Shown here one piece after another: positions 632-6,770 of a stretch of DNA of 64,000 nt (within the stretch, counting starts at the first letter, position 1; every line of letters starts with the position of its first letter). The position numbers and the translations under genes are program-made. The notes under the pieces were generated by a model. The model had not been told where the DNA came from and made no database searches. It saw nothing but the letters and a program-made list of their open reading frames with translations. Source of the stretch: Hydrococcus rivularis NIES-593 (GTDB lineage Bacteria > Cyanobacteriota > Cyanobacteriia > Cyanobacteriales > Microcystaceae); the NCBI RefSeq assembly GCF_001904635.1, contig NZ_MRCB01000011.1, forward strand, positions 62,001 to 126,000. The letters run 5' to 3'.

Positions 632-3600
632 ATGTCATTTCATATCTCTGCTTGGTCGATTAAAAATCCGATTCCTGTTATCGTAACTTTCCTAGTTCTA
701 GCAATAGTCGGATTTTTTTCGTTTTTAAGCCTGGGCATCGATAATAGTCCCAATATTGACGTTCCATCGGTGACAGTTACCGTAACGCAACGCGGCGCGG
801 GACCGGAAGAACTCGAATCCGAGGTCACCAAAAAAATTGAGGACGCGATCGCCAGCATCGGCAATATCGACCAGCTTACCTCAACGGTTACCGACGGCAC
901 TTCTACCACAACCGTCAATTTCGTCTTGGGAACGGATAGCGATCGCGCTACCAATGACGTTCGCAACGCGATCGATCGAGTTCGCCAAGACTTACCCCAA
1001 GACATCGACGACCCCATCGTCAAGCGAGTACAATTTGCTGGCGGTGCGGTCATGACTTACGCCGTCAGTTCCCAGAAGCGATCCGTCGCCGAACTCAGCG
1101 ATCTCCTCGATCGCACAATTAATCGAGAACTGGCCAATGTTCCGGGCGTTGCCCAAATCGATCGCCTCGGCGGACTCGACCGAGAAATTCGCGTCGATCT
1201 CGATCCGAGTCGCCTGCAAGCCTATGGCATTACAGCGACTCAAGTTAACGACCAAATTCGCAACTTTAATGTTAACTTGCCTGGGGGTCGCTCCGAAATC
1301 GGCGGCAGCGAACAAAACGTCCGCACTTTAGGCAGTGCCAAAACCGTCGAAGATTTACAAAAATATCGCATCGTGTTGCCGGGAGGGGATTCGGTTCCGC
1401 TGTCGAGTTTGGGTCAAGTTAGAGATGACCGTGGCGAAGCGCGACAATCGGCATTTCTGAATGGAAAACCCGTGGTCGCTTTTTCGGTGCGACGGAGTAC
1501 GGGCAGTACCCTAGTTAGTGTTGAAGAAGGCGTGCGCCAAAAGATAGAAGAACTGAAAAAAACGCTACCTCAAGATATCAAATTTAATTTAATTTTTACT
1601 CGTGCCGATGCAATTCGGGCTTCTTACCAAGACATGATTAACGATCTGGTCTTTGGCTGCCTGCTGACAGTAATTACCATCGGGTTATTTTTGTGGAATG
1701 CGCGAGTAACCTTAATTACGGCGCTGTCTCTGCCGCTTTCCATCATTGCTACCTTCGGCATGATGAAAGTTTTTGGCTACACCCTCAATAATATGACGCT
1801 TCTGGCACTAGCGCTGGCGATTGGGAACTTAATCGACGATGCAGTGTGCATGATCGAAATTATCGACCAGCATTTGTTGATGGGTAAAAAACCCATGCAA
1901 GCGGCATTAGATGGTGCAAAAGAATTGGGCTTAGCAGTCTTGGCGACGGCTGCTACGATTATCGCCGTTTTCATTCCGGTTGCTTTTATGGGAGGGGTAG
2001 CAGGGCAATTTTTTATGCCTTTTGGCGTAACCATTGCCGTCTCGACTATTTTTTCTACCCTCGTCGCTTGCACGCTCACCCCAATGCTAGCGGCTTATGT
2101 TTTGAAACCGAAAAAGAAATCCACGATTCAAAATTCAAAAATCCAATATCGCATACAACCTTACCGCAATATTTTGGCTTGGGCGCTGAGACATCGGATT
2201 ACGACAATGTTAATCGCGATCGCGTTTTTCATCGGCAGCGTACAACTGATTCCTTTCATTCCCAAAGGCTTATTTAATAGCGGCGATACGGGGCTGAGTA
2301 CCCTATCTGTCGAATTGCCCCCCGGATCTACGCTTCAAGAAACCGAACAAGTCAGCCAAGAAATCTATCGCTTGCTTAAAGATAAGCCTGCCGTTGAAAA
2401 TGTTCTAGCTACCATTGGCAATGAGGACAGAATTAACAATGCAACTATTTACGTTAAACTTATGCCCAAAGAGCAACGGGACATCTCCCAGAAACAATTT
2501 CAGGAAGAAATGCGCGAGGCATTTTTGCAAATTCCAGGTGCTCGCGTGAGTTTTCGCGCCCAAGGCGGGGCAGGCAGTAATAAGGATTTAACAATCGTCC
2601 TCAAAAGCGAAAATATTCCCGTTTTGACGAAAACTGCTAATGAAGTGGAAAGACAAATGCGGGAAGTACCGGGTTTGGTAGAGGTTACTTCCAGCATTAG
2701 TTTGGTCAAACCGGAGATTGTCATCATACCGAATGCCGAACGGGCAGCCGATTTAGGCGTGTCCGTACAGGCGATCGCCCGAACTGCCTCGCTTGCCCTC
2801 ATCGGCGATAACGATTCTAACTTGGCAAAATTTAATCTTCCCGACCGACAAATTCCCATTCGGGTTCAGATAGAACCCAAACGGCGCAACGATATTGAAA
2901 CTCTGAAAAACCTTCGCATTCCTGGCAATGATGGCACTTTAGTTCCCCTCAGCGCGGTAGCCGATATTCGCCTAGGCAGCGGCCCGGCAGAAATTAAGCG
3001 CTTCAACCGGAATCGACAGGTGGAATTGAGCGCCAATTTGCAAGGTCTGTCCCTCGGACAAGCGGTCGCTAAAGTAAGAGCCTTACCTGCTATGAATTCT
3101 CTCCCTCCCGAAGTCACAGAAGAACCCGCAGGCGATGCCAAAATCATGCGCGAGATCTTCGGTCGGTTTTTAGGCGCTTTGGGACTCTCAATCCTTTCAA
3201 TTTATGCCATCCTCGTGCTCCTGTATAACAATTTTCTTTATCCGTTTGGCATTTTGGCATCTCTCCCGCTATCGGTGGGAGGTACTTTCTTAGCCCTATT
3301 GATTACCCAGAAAGAGTTTGGGCTATATGCCCTCATCGGGATCGTCCTCCTGGTAGGATTGGTTATCAAAAATGCTATTTTATTAATAGATTTTGCCTTA
3401 ATAGAAATTAAAGCGGGCAAATCGCTTTTTAAGGGCGTATTTGATGCTAGTATCTCCCGCTTTCGACCTATTATGATGACTTCCATCTCTACGATCGCTG
3501 GAATGTTGCCCATTGCCCTGGGATTGGGAGCAGACGGAGAAGTTCGCAGTCCCATGGCAGTCGCCGCGATTGGGGGGTTTACCACTTCTACCTTGCTAAC

Positions 3601-3730
3601 ATTAGTGGTCGTTCCCGTTATATTCACTTATATCTATAATTTCTATCGCTGGTTGCGTCGGTTAACCGGAGAGAAAAAATTGGCTCCAGTCAAGGTGCAA
3701 AATTTGAGTGGATATAGCACTAAAAGTTAA
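632..3730 (+). CDS. RND (HAE1/AcrB-type) efflux pump, inner-membrane subunit
   Basis: 1032 residues, the normal size for an AcrB/MexB-type proton-driven exporter. The first membrane helix is at about residues 12-32 (PIPVIVTFLVLAIVGFF). Two periplasmic porter loops alternate with two bundles of membrane helices. The TM4 acidic pair that carries protons is present as DD at 402-403 (GNLIDDAVCMIEI). The porter-domain start PNIDVPSVTVTVTQRGAGPEE is typical. The gene lies downstream of the adaptor, as expected for a tripartite pump. No outer-membrane channel gene is visible. Around residue 500 a basic, Gln-rich segment (STIQNSKIQYRIQP) is encoded by DNA resembling a common cyanobacterial intergenic repeat, suggesting a small insertion. 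Substrate is unknown. Confidence 0.95.
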   Translation: MSFHISAWSIKNPIPVIVTFLVLAIVGFFSFLSLGIDNSPNIDVPSVTVTVTQRGAGPEELESEVTKKIEDAIASIGNIDQLTSTVTDGTSTTTVNFVLGTDSDRATNDVRNAIDRVRQDLPQDIDDPIVKRVQFAGGAVMTYAVSSQKRSVAELSDLLDRTINRELANVPGVAQIDRLGGLDREIRVDLDPSRLQAYGITATQVNDQIRNFNVNLPGGRSEIGGSEQNVRTLGSAKTVEDLQKYRIVLPGGDSVPLSSLGQVRDDRGEARQSAFLNGKPVVAFSVRRSTGSTLVSVEEGVRQKIEELKKTLPQDIKFNLIFTRADAIRASYQDMINDLVFGCLLTVITIGLFLWNARVTLITALSLPLSIIATFGMMKVFGYTLNNMTLLALALAIGNLIDDAVCMIEIIDQHLLMGKKPMQAALDGAKELGLAVLATAATIIAVFIPVAFMGGVAGQFFMPFGVTIAVSTIFSTLVACTLTPMLAAYVLKPKKKSTIQNSKIQYRIQPYRNILAWALRHRITTMLIAIAFFIGSVQLIPFIPKGLFNSGDTGLSTLSVELPPGSTLQETEQVSQEIYRLLKDKPAVENVLATIGNEDRINNATIYVKLMPKEQRDISQKQFQEEMREAFLQIPGARVSFRAQGGAGSNKDLTIVLKSENIPVLTKTANEVERQMREVPGLVEVTSSISLVKPEIVIIPNAERAADLGVSVQAIARTASLALIGDNDSNLAKFNLPDRQIPIRVQIEPKRRNDIETLKNLRIPGNDGTLVPLSAVADIRLGSGPAEIKRFNRNRQVELSANLQGLSLGQAVAKVRALPAMNSLPPEVTEEPAGDAKIMREIFGRFLGALGLSILSIYAILVLLYNNFLYPFGILASLPLSVGGTFLALLITQKEFGLYALIGIVLLVGLVIKNAILLIDFALIEIKAGKSLFKGVFDASISRFRPIMMTSISTIAGMLPIALGLGADGEVRSPMAVAAIGGFTTSTLLTLVVVPVIFTYIYNFYRWLRRLTGEKKLAPVKVQNLSGYSTKS

Positions 3731-3735
3731 CGCAA

Positions 3736-3891
3736 CTACCTTTTTTCTATTCGATCTAGAGCTTGTTTGGCTTTCAAAATCGCTTTTAGATAGGCAATTT
3801 GACTTTGCCAAGCTTGACGAGGCAATAGGAGAGGTTCTGGCTCGATTTCATTTGCCGATTTCTCTCGCTCGTTGTCTATATTTTCGACCAT
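3736..3891 (-). CDS. 51-residue small protein downstream of the RiPP radical SAM gene
   Basis: An ORF of 51 codons on the minus strand, starting at ATG 3889-3891 and ending at TAG 3736-3738. A very strong Shine-Dalgarno, ACGAGGAGG, sits about 9 bases before the ATG, which is the best evidence that it is translated. The protein is charged and probably helical: MVENIDNEREKSANEIEPE, then LLLPRQAWQSQIAYLKAIL, then KAKQALDRIEKR. It begins 34 bases after the radical SAM stop codon on the same strand, so it is probably the last gene of the precursor-rSAM unit. Known spliceases work with a small accessory protein (PlpY in the Pleurocapsa system). Whether this protein is its counterpart is inference from position and size only; no domain was recognised. 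Confidence 0.6.
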   Translation of the reverse strand: MVENIDNEREKSANEIEPEPLLLPRQAWQSQIAYLKAILKAKQALDRIEKR

Positions 3892-3925
3892 CGGCGATCG
3901 CCTCCTCGTAATTTCCTATCAAATT

Positions 3926-5188
3926 TTAATCAACTACAGCACCAATCAACTCGGATTCTTCCTGCCAGTTTGCCGACCACTGGATGCGATCGGATGTAAA
4001 ATGCAGGGAATCGTTTTCTGGTAAAGGAGCATCAATCGGCTCTTCGATTAGCTCGAATTCCCCATTGTCAAAAGGTAGTCCCTGCGCCCCTACTTTAAAA
4101 ACGACGCGCTCCCGAATGCCTTGCTCTGCTTGAAAGAGCGCCCGATGATGGCAGTAAGGATTATTTCCTCGACGGTTGAAAAAAACGTGAGCAGTCCAAG
4201 TGCAACCCCCACGACACAGTTCTGCAAACTCGCAGGTTTTGCAGAACCCCCACAGATGAGCGGTTCCCTGGAGCGTTCCCGCGCCGAGATTGAAACGCAG
4301 TTGCTCTGATTCTTCGACGATTTCCCGCAGCGAATGCTCTCGAATGTTGCCGCCCGTGTAAGCCGAAGTTGGCAGCGAAGGACACCCTTTAATCGCGCCG
4401 TCTGCCTCGATTCCCAAGGTTGAAAGTCCGGCAGCGCACCCCTGCCAAAATGCCCATTCGCTATCGCTTCCTCGTCCCCGTAAGAGTCGTTCGTAAGGAC
4501 CATAATAACCAATATTGTTGCCAGGCTGGATCTGAACGCCTTCTTGCCGTGCCCGACGGGCTACGCGGGCTATCATTGGGTAGAGATCTAGTAACTCGTA
4601 GGGTTGCAGCAAAATATTGGCATTGTCTGCTGCTCTTCCCATCGGTACGGTTAGCTGAATTTGCCAAGCCCTAGCACCAGCGTCGCGAATGCGTTCGTAA
4701 ATGAGGGGAAATTCCGGCGCAGAAAGACGGTTGATTTGGGTGTTGCAGCCAAAGAAAATCCCGACTTCTCGCAGGTGGCTCATAGTCTTAAAAGCAGCTT
4801 GCCAGGAGCCTTTTCTTGCCCGCAGGCGATCGTGGGTTTCCTCTAGCCCATCAATGGAAACCGAAACCGAAGCGATGCCTGCTGCCTTCATTTTACGCGC
4901 CGTCTCCAGCGAAATGCCATAGCCACCAGTCGTCATACTGCATAGCATCCCCGCCTTAGTAATAGCCTCTGCAATTTGCAGCCAGTCTGGACGAAGAAAT
5001 GCCTCGCCGCCAATCAACGTCACCTCTGTAATTCCTACATCCGCCATCTGCCAGACGAGATCGAGAGCCTCTTGTGTCGAGAGTTCCTTAGCCCTGGTAT
5101 GTCCCGCTCGCGAACCGCAGTGACTACAAGCTAAATTGCACTTTAGGGTAATTTCCCAAACAGCATAACTGGTTCTGCGATAAGTCAT
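3926..5188 (-). CDS. radical SAM/SPASM RiPP maturase, splicease (PlpX)-like
   Basis: 420 residues. The radical SAM 4Fe-4S motif CxxxCxxC is at C17, C21 and C24 (KCNLACSHC), followed by TLIGGEAFLRPDW, the SAM-binding GGE region. A C-terminal SPASM domain has seven cysteines: C251 and C269 in GCAAGLSTLGIEADGAIKGC, then C316, C319, C325, C329 and C346 in the FCKTCEFAELCRGGC region. SPASM domains hold auxiliary iron-sulfur clusters and are typical of peptide-modifying enzymes such as PqqE, sactisynthases and PlpX. The gene follows, by 107 bases, a Nif11-leader precursor carrying XYG motifs, the substrate signature of spliceases that excise a tyramine unit from the peptide backbone. The specific reaction is inferred from the partner peptide. 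Membership of the radical SAM/SPASM maturases is near certain. Confidence 0.9.
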   Translation of the reverse strand: MTYRRTSYAVWEITLKCNLACSHCGSRAGHTRAKELSTQEALDLVWQMADVGITEVTLIGGEAFLRPDWLQIAEAITKAGMLCSMTTGGYGISLETARKMKAAGIASVSVSIDGLEETHDRLRARKGSWQAAFKTMSHLREVGIFFGCNTQINRLSAPEFPLIYERIRDAGARAWQIQLTVPMGRAADNANILLQPYELLDLYPMIARVARRARQEGVQIQPGNNIGYYGPYERLLRGRGSDSEWAFWQGCAAGLSTLGIEADGAIKGCPSLPTSAYTGGNIREHSLREIVEESEQLRFNLGAGTLQGTAHLWGFCKTCEFAELCRGGCTWTAHVFFNRRGNNPYCHHRALFQAEQGIRERVVFKVGAQGLPFDNGEFELIEEPIDAPLPENDSLHFTSDRIQWSANWQEESELIGAVVD

Positions 5189-5295
5189 CTCAGATTCACC
5201 TCAATCTCAACTATAGGAAGCGATCGCAATCTGTCTGCTAAAACTTGGTTAGAGAACAAAAGCGCTCGTCCGTCCTAGCAGGCATAAAGAGATGA

Positions 5296-5730
5296 TTATG
5301 AATCGTTTGAGACAACTACCCCATACATCGGCTGCACGTCAACAGGCGGCTTCCAAGGAGAAGGTATAGGCGATGGCTTCGGCAACGGACTTGGAAAGCG
5401 CCAACCCCAATCCTTACCGGGCTTGGGATCTCCTACTACTGCTCCGTACATTGCTTGAATGAGTCCGTAGATCCCGCTACCTCCAGTAACCCCGCCAACG
5501 GCTGTCACTAACTCTTCTTCTGTCAGTTCGTGAAACTCGTCTCGTTCTTTTAAATCGAGTAGCTCAATCGTAGCTGTCTCAAATTCTTCTTTTGAGAAAA
5601 TATAGCCAGCTTCTTGTAAGATGTTTCTAACTTCGTCGATTGAATTATTCTGAAGTTGAGATTGGAAAGCTTCGTCTTTAACTAGCCTGACGAAAAACTC
5701 TTTGACTTTTTCTAAGATATTTGAGGACAT
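5296..5730 (-). CDS. Nif11-leader RiPP precursor with one IYG and two MYG core motifs
   Basis: 144 residues. Residues 1-80 read as a Nif11-type leader: an amphipathic helical start (MSSNILEKVKEFFVRLVKDE), an acidic middle and the cleavage-type ending ELTEEELVTAVGG with GG at 79-80. A second GG follows at 83-84. The core (about 81-144) contains IYG at 87-89, MYG at 94-96 and MYG at 135-137. The last two share the context MYG-A/V-V-V. A Pro/Trp/Lys-rich linker (about 101-132, with SPLPKPSPIPSPWKPP) separates them. XYG, often MYG, is the known recognition motif of PlpX-type spliceases, which convert the site to an alpha-keto-beta-amino acid. The start has the Shine-Dalgarno GAGAGGGATAGG upstream. 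No dedicated peptidase or ABC exporter is seen nearby. Confidence 0.85.
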   Translation of the reverse strand: MSSNILEKVKEFFVRLVKDEAFQSQLQNNSIDEVRNILQEAGYIFSKEEFETATIELLDLKERDEFHELTEEELVTAVGGVTGGSGIYGLIQAMYGAVVGDPKPGKDWGWRFPSPLPKPSPIPSPWKPPVDVQPMYGVVVSNDS

Positions 5731-5924: not shown

Positions 5925-6770
5925 TCAAATAAAGTAACTTCCAGAAAACACGCGCTTGGCAGGACCAGTCATATAAACTCGCTCGTCAGTTTCCGACCAG
6001 TGAATTTTGAGACAGCCGCCAGGAAGTTCAACGGTACAGAGGCGATCGCTCTTTCCAGTCAATACGCCAGCCACGACGGAAGCGCAAGCCCCCGTGCCAC
6101 AAGCCAGGGTTGCGCCTGCACCTCTTTCCCAGACTCGCATTTTCAGATAATCGGGGCGGATGATTTGGATGAATTCTGTATTTGTCCGTTGAGGAAAGAC
6201 GGGATGGCGTTCAAATTGAGGACCGATCGTTTCTAGCACGATCGCGTCTGTATTTTCTACAAAGGTGATACAGTGAGGATTGCCCATACTCACGCAAGTT
6301 ACCAGCCAAGATTTCCCGCCAACTTCTAAAGATTGCTCGATAACTTTCTCTTCGGGTTTGCCCAAAGTCGTCGGAATTTGCGCCGCCGTCAACTGAGGCG
6401 TTCCCATATCGACGCTCACTTGCTCGTCTCCTTCCAAGCGAGGCGTAATGACTCCTGCTAGGGTATGAATGCGATAGGATTTGCCAGCGGTTTCCGTTCC
6501 TTCTAGCTGTGCGATAAATCGCGCCAAACAACGAATGCCATTGCCGCACATTTCCGGTTCGGAACCGTCGGCGTTAAAAATCCGCATTGCGTAGTCCGTG
6601 CCATCTTGTCCGGGAAGGGCAAAAATCACTCCATCCGCACCGATGCCGAAATGGCGATCGCACATTTGTACCGCTATCTCTGGCGAGATAAGCGGTTCAG
6701 AGCGATGGCGATTGTCGAGCAAAATAAAATCATTGCCAAGTCCGTGATATTTGGTAAACTCAATGACCAT
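5925..6770 (-). CDS. dapF: diaminopimelate epimerase
   Basis: 281 residues, normal for DapF, which interconverts LL- and meso-diaminopimelate for lysine and peptidoglycan synthesis in the cytosol. The two catalytic cysteines are visible: C75 in [11 protein letters not shown] and C224 in [11 protein letters not shown]. The N-terminal [15 protein letters not shown] motif is also present. The gene is head-to-head with hfq, whose start codon is 43 bases away, so the two share a very short divergent promoter region. The same dapF-hfq divergent arrangement is, to my knowledge, seen in other cyanobacteria. Confidence 0.96.

Follow-up and report, generated by a model that had tools for sequence, protein, structure and literature searches.

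Organization of the Locus

The window, the 64,000-nucleotide stretch of the Hydrococcus rivularis NIES-593 genome analysed here, very probably holds a complete PlpXY-type spliceotide cassette, as judged from its sequence. The cassette consists of three genes on the minus strand, flanked by an RND efflux gene (632–3730, plus strand) and dapF (5925–6770, minus strand). The first encodes a 144-aa Nif11-leader precursor of the PlpA type (5296–5730), followed after 107 nt by the gene of a 420-aa PlpX-type radical SAM/SPASM splicease (3926–5188) and, 34 nt further, by that of a 51-aa PlpY homologue (3736–3891). The RND gene is convergent with the cassette. The original prediction had named three open reading frames of these lengths, and each was found in its place on the minus strand. 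Its Nif11-leader peptide with three XYG motifs is likewise confirmed, and the strong ribosome binding site that it had assigned to the 51-codon frame is a Shine-Dalgarno sequence, GAGGAGG (3901–3907, minus strand), 9 nt before the ATG. The three-gene set is not a product of chance, since homologues of the small ORF follow the radical SAM gene in 76 of 76 cyanobacterial loci and YG is confined to the cores of the relatives' precursors. The observation of the locus is thus confirmed.

The radical SAM protein scores 823.2 bits against the NCBIfam model TIGR04103 (equivalog cut-off 725), and the next-best model, TIGR03913, gives 417 bits (cut-off 592). It carries a CxxxCxxC radical SAM motif at C17–C24 (5117–5140, minus strand) and seven conserved cysteines in its SPASM part. 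The AlphaFold model (pLDDT 87.5) retrieves PqqE, SkfB, BlsE, anSME and SuiB as the top-ranked solved folds. A sactipeptide or PqqE-type enzyme was considered and rejected, the search against other SPASM maturases giving scores far below the cut-offs (StsB 92 for a cut-off of 625 bits, SkfB 87 for 300, PqqE 85 for 381). This protein is the single TIGR04103 match over the cut-off in its own genome (5.14 Mb, 67 contigs). The cut-off is passed in 61 of the 388 genomes of the order, and the family is also encoded in another genome of the genus (G632). We take TIGR04103 to be the same family as IPR026482. PlpX is placed in IPR026482 in a passage of PMC11002830.

The prototype cluster was located through its splice tags. 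According to a section of PMC10533398, these contain the sequences PIRPLYGLPI and AVAAGYGVVFP, the latter with a Gly introduced by engineering. Searching the order for IRPLYGLPI gave one of 388 genomes (G454), in which the peptide adjoins a TIGR04103 gene; the plp tag search in the phylum found none among 386 genomes. The G454 locus (L116) carries PIRPLYGLPI and AVAAMYGVVFP in two Nif11 precursors, together with an NHLP precursor, a PoyD-type epimerase (TIGR04517), a radical SAM gene and an adjoining 56-aa ORF. Because these contents fit the published description of the cluster, as given in part of PMC11002830, L116 is identified as the plp cluster of Pleurocapsa sp. PCC 7319; the two tag peptides, the gene content and the gene order, rather than a named record, are the basis of this identification.

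The window resembles the PCC 7319 cluster in its TIGR04103 enzyme, PlpY partner, Nif11 leader and XYG sites, and in the gene order precursor-PlpX-PlpY. The two PlpX proteins share 320 of 408 residues (78%), and the prototype scores 824 bits on TIGR04103. With the score, this identity and the adjacent PlpY, the PlpX/PlpY-type assignment of the original prediction holds. L116 differs from the window in having a PoyD-type epimerase and an additional precursor of the NHLP type, and its XYG sites are distributed one to each of two Nif11 precursors, whereas the window has a single precursor with three sites and a proline-rich linker. A closer counterpart lies in a genome of the same genus (G595, presumably Pleurocapsa sp. 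PCC 7327, although this is not certain). Its locus, L117, has the same three genes, the convergent RND gene and an adjoining dapF, and a radical SAM protein 97% identical to that of the window. It differs from the window in a P instead of an L after the first YG and in few further changes.

Precursor Peptide and XYG Sites

The Nif11 leader spans residues 1–80 (5491–5730, minus strand) and passes the cut-offs of both TIGR03798 (36.8 bits for 32.3) and Pfam Nif11 (34.5 bits for 23.8). The TIGR03798 match reaches residue 80, where the leader ends in AVGG, and cleavage would be expected after the GG. Five Nif11 matches at E up to 1 were obtained in a profile search of the genome, and the precursor of the window alone passes the cut-off. 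A second Nif11-like ORF of this genome (G000:C5:5503-5652), with an open frame of 76 aa, reaches 30.3 bits (cut-off 32.3).

The core contains three putative splice sites: I87-Y88-G89 (5464–5472), M94-Y95-G96 (5443–5451) and M135-Y136-G137 (5320–5328), all on the minus strand. The proline-rich linker separates the second from the third, which aligns in relatives such as L009. Across the precursors of relatives, the cores (5587 residues) contain 201 YG and the leaders (9938 residues) a single one. The residue X of their sites (n = 199) is Leu in 87, Met in 61 and Ile in 19. The 122 distinct precursors of relatives contain no XYG in 3 cases, one in 50, two in 59, three in 9 and four in 1, and three sites are thus at the high end of the range. 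The comparison with G595 gave 15 synonymous and 2 non-synonymous differences in the precursor (dN/dS 0.03) and 32 and 15, respectively, in the radical SAM gene (dN/dS 0.14); both are under purifying selection. In PlpY there are 2 differences in total, too few for judging selection.

Up to three of these sites are expected to be used. The prototype PlpXY naturally acts on MYG and LYG sites, according to part of PMC10533398. The IYG site differs from these and is followed by an L in the window and a P in the sister genome, for which reasons it may not be used. It is possible, though less likely than not, that only the two MYG sites are spliced and that IYG is a chance or lost site. The lower frequency of Ile at X and the scarcity of precursors with three or four sites point in that direction; against it, IYG itself is retained in both the window and L117, and Ile sites are present in other precursors.

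Identity and Structure of PlpY

The accessory ORF, which the original prediction had left undefined, is PlpY, as it matches the PlpY that lies beside PlpX in L116 (18 of 45 residues identical, 40%; E 5e-11 in a single comparison). The locus is therefore a complete precursor-PlpX-PlpY set. No NCBIfam model matches the small protein at E up to 1, and Pfam returns one weak unrelated match. Among 28 aligned homologues, L23, P24, R25, W28, K42 and L45 are invariant, the first four belonging to the LPRQAW motif (3808–3825, minus strand). The structural model (pLDDT 72 overall, about 90 in the helix) has a low-confidence start, helices at residues 25–28 and 31–50, the latter directly following the motif, and no strand.

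An RRE fold, which is a winged helix-turn-helix with three strands and three helices, was rejected for PlpY on account of this model. A related proposal, which concerns only the role of PlpY, is that the protein is a truncated RRE binding the Nif11 leader. It is so termed in a passage of a 2024 review (PMC11002830), and part of RRE-Finder 2020 (PMC7470986) lists the alpha-keto beta-amino acid peptides among the RRE-dependent classes. We consider this unlikely. The model shows a single long helix without a beta-wing, a passage of PMC12710340 citing Richter et al. describes PlpY as too small for an RRE fold, and a similar motif is carried by putative substrates of related enzymes, as described below. 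PlpY would rather be a docking helix for PlpX, formed by LPRxxW and one amphipathic helix.

An [LF]PR Element on Putative Substrates in Myxococcota and Acidobacteria

An E threshold of 1e-100 gave relatives of the enzyme in 41 of 195 Myxococcota genomes, with no score above the TIGR04103 cut-off; in Acidobacteria, 3 of 297 genomes have relatives. The 22 loci examined (L130, L131, L137–L150, L166 and L171–L175) have radical SAM proteins of at least 590 bits; they comprise a first 17 (15 of 20 hits of the Myxococcota search, plus L131 and L166) and five initially left out. These loci are related and not independent, representing about seven lineages by our reading of the tree. Their radical SAM proteins are 59–67% identical to that of the window, and the 12 that were aligned share its SPASM cysteines.

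In each of the 22 loci, the expected site of a putative substrate encoded nearby is preceded by an [LF]PR element. The ORF bearing it lies upstream of the radical SAM gene except in L143, where it comes after. The element is followed by YG in 20 of the 22 putative substrates and by YA in L174 and L175. Eight (L130, L137–L140, L143, L150 and L171) contain the PlpY-like form [LF]PRxxW. Unlike the window, the fetched stretches of these loci yielded neither a separate PlpY nor a significant match to Nif11. Beyond the substrate ORFs, the best PlpY match in the fetched 3–4 kb (mostly 1.5 kb on each side; ORFs of at least 40 residues between stops) has an E of 0.29. For Nif11, the best E in the 22 stretches is 0.13; six ORFs match at E up to 1, all of them short substrates whose ends (L..V.GG) resemble ordinary leader ends.

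The resemblance between element and PlpY was evaluated with profiles. A PlpY profile built from 95 cyanobacterial fragments was applied to 40 non-cyanobacterial loci with 2439 ORFs and ranks two of the substrate ORFs first (L150, E 0.0011; L137, E 0.009), the third match being at 0.59. In a profile-profile comparison, seven of the eight W-type elements match PlpY with an E of 2.5e-8. When [LF]PR windows were drawn at random from these loci, 0 of 200 sets reached this value, and one window among 237 contains [LF]PRxxW. The element windows were chosen by [LF]PR, so that this share of the match comes from selection, and controls were run for it: once the motif columns were left out, the seven elements of the W type still give an E of 1.5e-4 (0 of 150 permutations as good) and all 14 elements an E of 0.0067 (1 of 150), and for the five W-type elements without L137 and L150, 6 of 150 permutations are as good. 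The short FPRT-type substrates (L141 and its kin) by themselves show no significant profile match to PlpY (probability 0.39%, 30 of 200 permutations as good); their link to PlpY is one of place and of the [LF]PR motif.

In a regular-expression test on the first 17 loci, [LIVMF]PR precedes YG in 20 of 28 YG-containing neighbour ORFs, with 8.7 expected by shuffling, the 20 including some that are implausible as substrates, namely ORFs of 414 aa in L145 and L146 and of 387 aa in L149. Among the low-scoring radical SAM group, the motif is present in 4 of 19 ORFs (expected 3.3). It is absent from three Thermoanaerobaculia loci (L132, L134 and L136, 540–568 bits), and nothing was found in L081/L133, a fragment ending at a contig edge. 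The absence of a separate PlpY together with the presence of [LF]PR on the putative substrate in 22 of 22 loci suggests that PlpY is a detached substrate-docking helix and not a truncated RRE.

Several of the related loci show features of their own. The putative substrates of L131 and L166 are not small peptides. That of L131 (438–1484) appears by eye to be zinc-ribbon-like and has LYGPPPMP and VYGPPPMP before a membrane helix, and that of L166 (3593–2709, minus strand) has LPR at its start as well as QYG and a Tat-like RR stretch. The short putative substrates of L174 (1030–1458, plus strand) and L175 (1144–1455, minus strand; both in coordinates of the strand read) retain LPRTQVIERQ and GG, and RYALPP stands where their kin have YG; the site may be lost or may naturally be YA. 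The radical SAM proteins of L132 (the same place as L078), L134 and L136, which belong to one genome, no longer have cysteines at the positions of C251, C269 and C329 and keep C316, C319, C325 and C346; short PYG, LYG or DYG peptides adjoin them. Next to the lower-scoring radical SAM genes of L135 and L151–L154 are proteins with [RA][PLM]YGV[FV]-like sites in two copies; the stretches that come after these are charged and seem to be helical, and there is no [LF]PRxxW helix. Two or three small DUF1843 genes, possibly precursors, adjoin the TIGR03913-type radical SAM genes of L168 and L169, located on plasmids of Azospirillum and Aureibacter.

Relationships of the Radical SAM Enzymes

The tree was built from 149 radical SAM rows, of which 63 were kept after dropping rows more than 88% alike. 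The 34 cyanobacterial rows, among them the window and PlpX, lie on one side of a branch with support 87/94, recovered in 86% of 200 bootstrap trees. The placement of the enzyme in a tree, proposed with the original prediction, thus puts it with PlpX in one cyanobacterial clade. The Myxococcota high group, with 10 rows, joins the cyanobacterial rows (98/96), and two Acidobacteria rows fall outside this pair. In 35% of the bootstrap trees the Myxococcota rows come together as one group, and the cyanobacterial rows may be beside or inside them. The two TIGR03913 outgroup rows are not together on one side of a branch.

The Acidobacteria rows carry the cis element in its weakest form (FPRRPG, LPRSAP). 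Since they stand outside the cyanobacteria-Myxococcota pair and also have it in cis, the cis arrangement looks older, an order that we infer from the tree. On balance, we lean towards the reading that PlpY is a substrate-borne docking helix turned separate gene, which remained in cis in Myxococcota and Acidobacteria and became detached in cyanobacteria, where it would activate or tether PlpX in trans and free the enzyme for many Nif11 precursors.

Related SPASM families carry out other chemistry on peptides, and the next family, TIGR03913, scores 417 bits with the enzyme of the window. A different reaction on the XYG tyrosine, such as a crosslink or a simple cleavage, is nonetheless very unlikely here, given the 78% identity to PlpX, the score over the TIGR04103 equivalog cut-off, the conserved PlpY partner and the identical XYG context.

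Distribution of the Cassette and Neighbouring Genes

A scan of species genomes for relatives provided 84 loci, of which 80 were kept, 76 of them cyanobacterial. A Nif11 ORF was detected with our own profile in the fetched stretches of 75 of these 76, as a single copy in 44, two in 21, three in 6, four in 3 and seven in 1. Single-precursor cassettes are thus usual in cyanobacteria. The original prediction had seen in this locus a minimal, single-precursor version; the single precursor and the lack of an epimerase stand, but a special minimal locus was rejected, as this layout is the commonest and the epimerase-bearing prototype is the exception. Among the cyanobacterial loci compared, a PlpD-like epimerase was found in L116 alone.

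Accessory genes are frequent around the other cassettes. An ABC or HlyD gene was found near 39 of the 76 cyanobacterial loci (near 30 of those 50 whose 8-kb flanks are complete), and 46 of the 76 have a gene for a PpiC-type isomerase nearby. An LxmK-like kinase gene (95.7 bits, cut-off 315) and a HopA1-like gene are each found near 18 of the 76, with examples in L046 (13373–14536) and L054 (11143–12255). We take these two to be class V lanthipeptide genes, and their presence near splicease cassettes suggests hybrid clusters. None of the five (ABC, HlyD, PPIase, LxmK-like, HopA1-like), searched for with one representative each and E up to 1e-10, was found in the window or in the 20 kb of contig around the locus. 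The earlier statement that no exporter, protease or epimerase is visible is correct for the genes searched, provided that the convergent RND gene is not counted. Although none of the common exporter genes was found nearby, it is most improbable that the locus is a decaying relic without product, as the frames are intact in both the window and L117 and the dN/dS of the precursor is 0.03.

Proposed Pathway and Significance

The precursor would be synthesised with its Nif11 leader. PlpX and PlpY act on XYG sites with a loss of 135.0757 Da per site, according to parts of PMC10533398 and PMC11002830. By analogy with PlpXY, the enzymes of the window would excise tyramine at XYG and leave reactive keto-amide links. 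Up to three excisions are expected, amounting to about 405 Da, with keto-residues derived from Ile, Met and Met. The leader would be removed after AVGG, probably by a C39-type peptidase encoded elsewhere, and C39-type transporters elsewhere in the genome could serve for export; five peptidase C39 matches lie outside the locus.

The locus is a further member of the known PlpXY splicease family. Richter et al. reportedly described in 2024, as the title of their work has it, a conserved helix for leader-independent splicing, and part or perhaps all of the cis-helix reading may already be in print. A passage of PMC10373908, citing Scott et al. 2022, states that splicing occurs broadly across bacteria. 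In view of these statements on breadth and on the helix, the family is not put forward as new here, and for the cis-to-trans reading we suggest novelty only with reserve.

Within this known family, the locus contributes a compact natural substrate that has three sites and comes with all of its enzymes, of possible use in the ketoamide labelling of proteins. If the docking reading is true, the docking part would be portable, and a PlpY helix fused to an XYG protein should allow leader-independent splicing. The wider comparison matters more, as it provides a testable role for PlpY and shows that single-precursor cassettes are the usual form in cyanobacteria.
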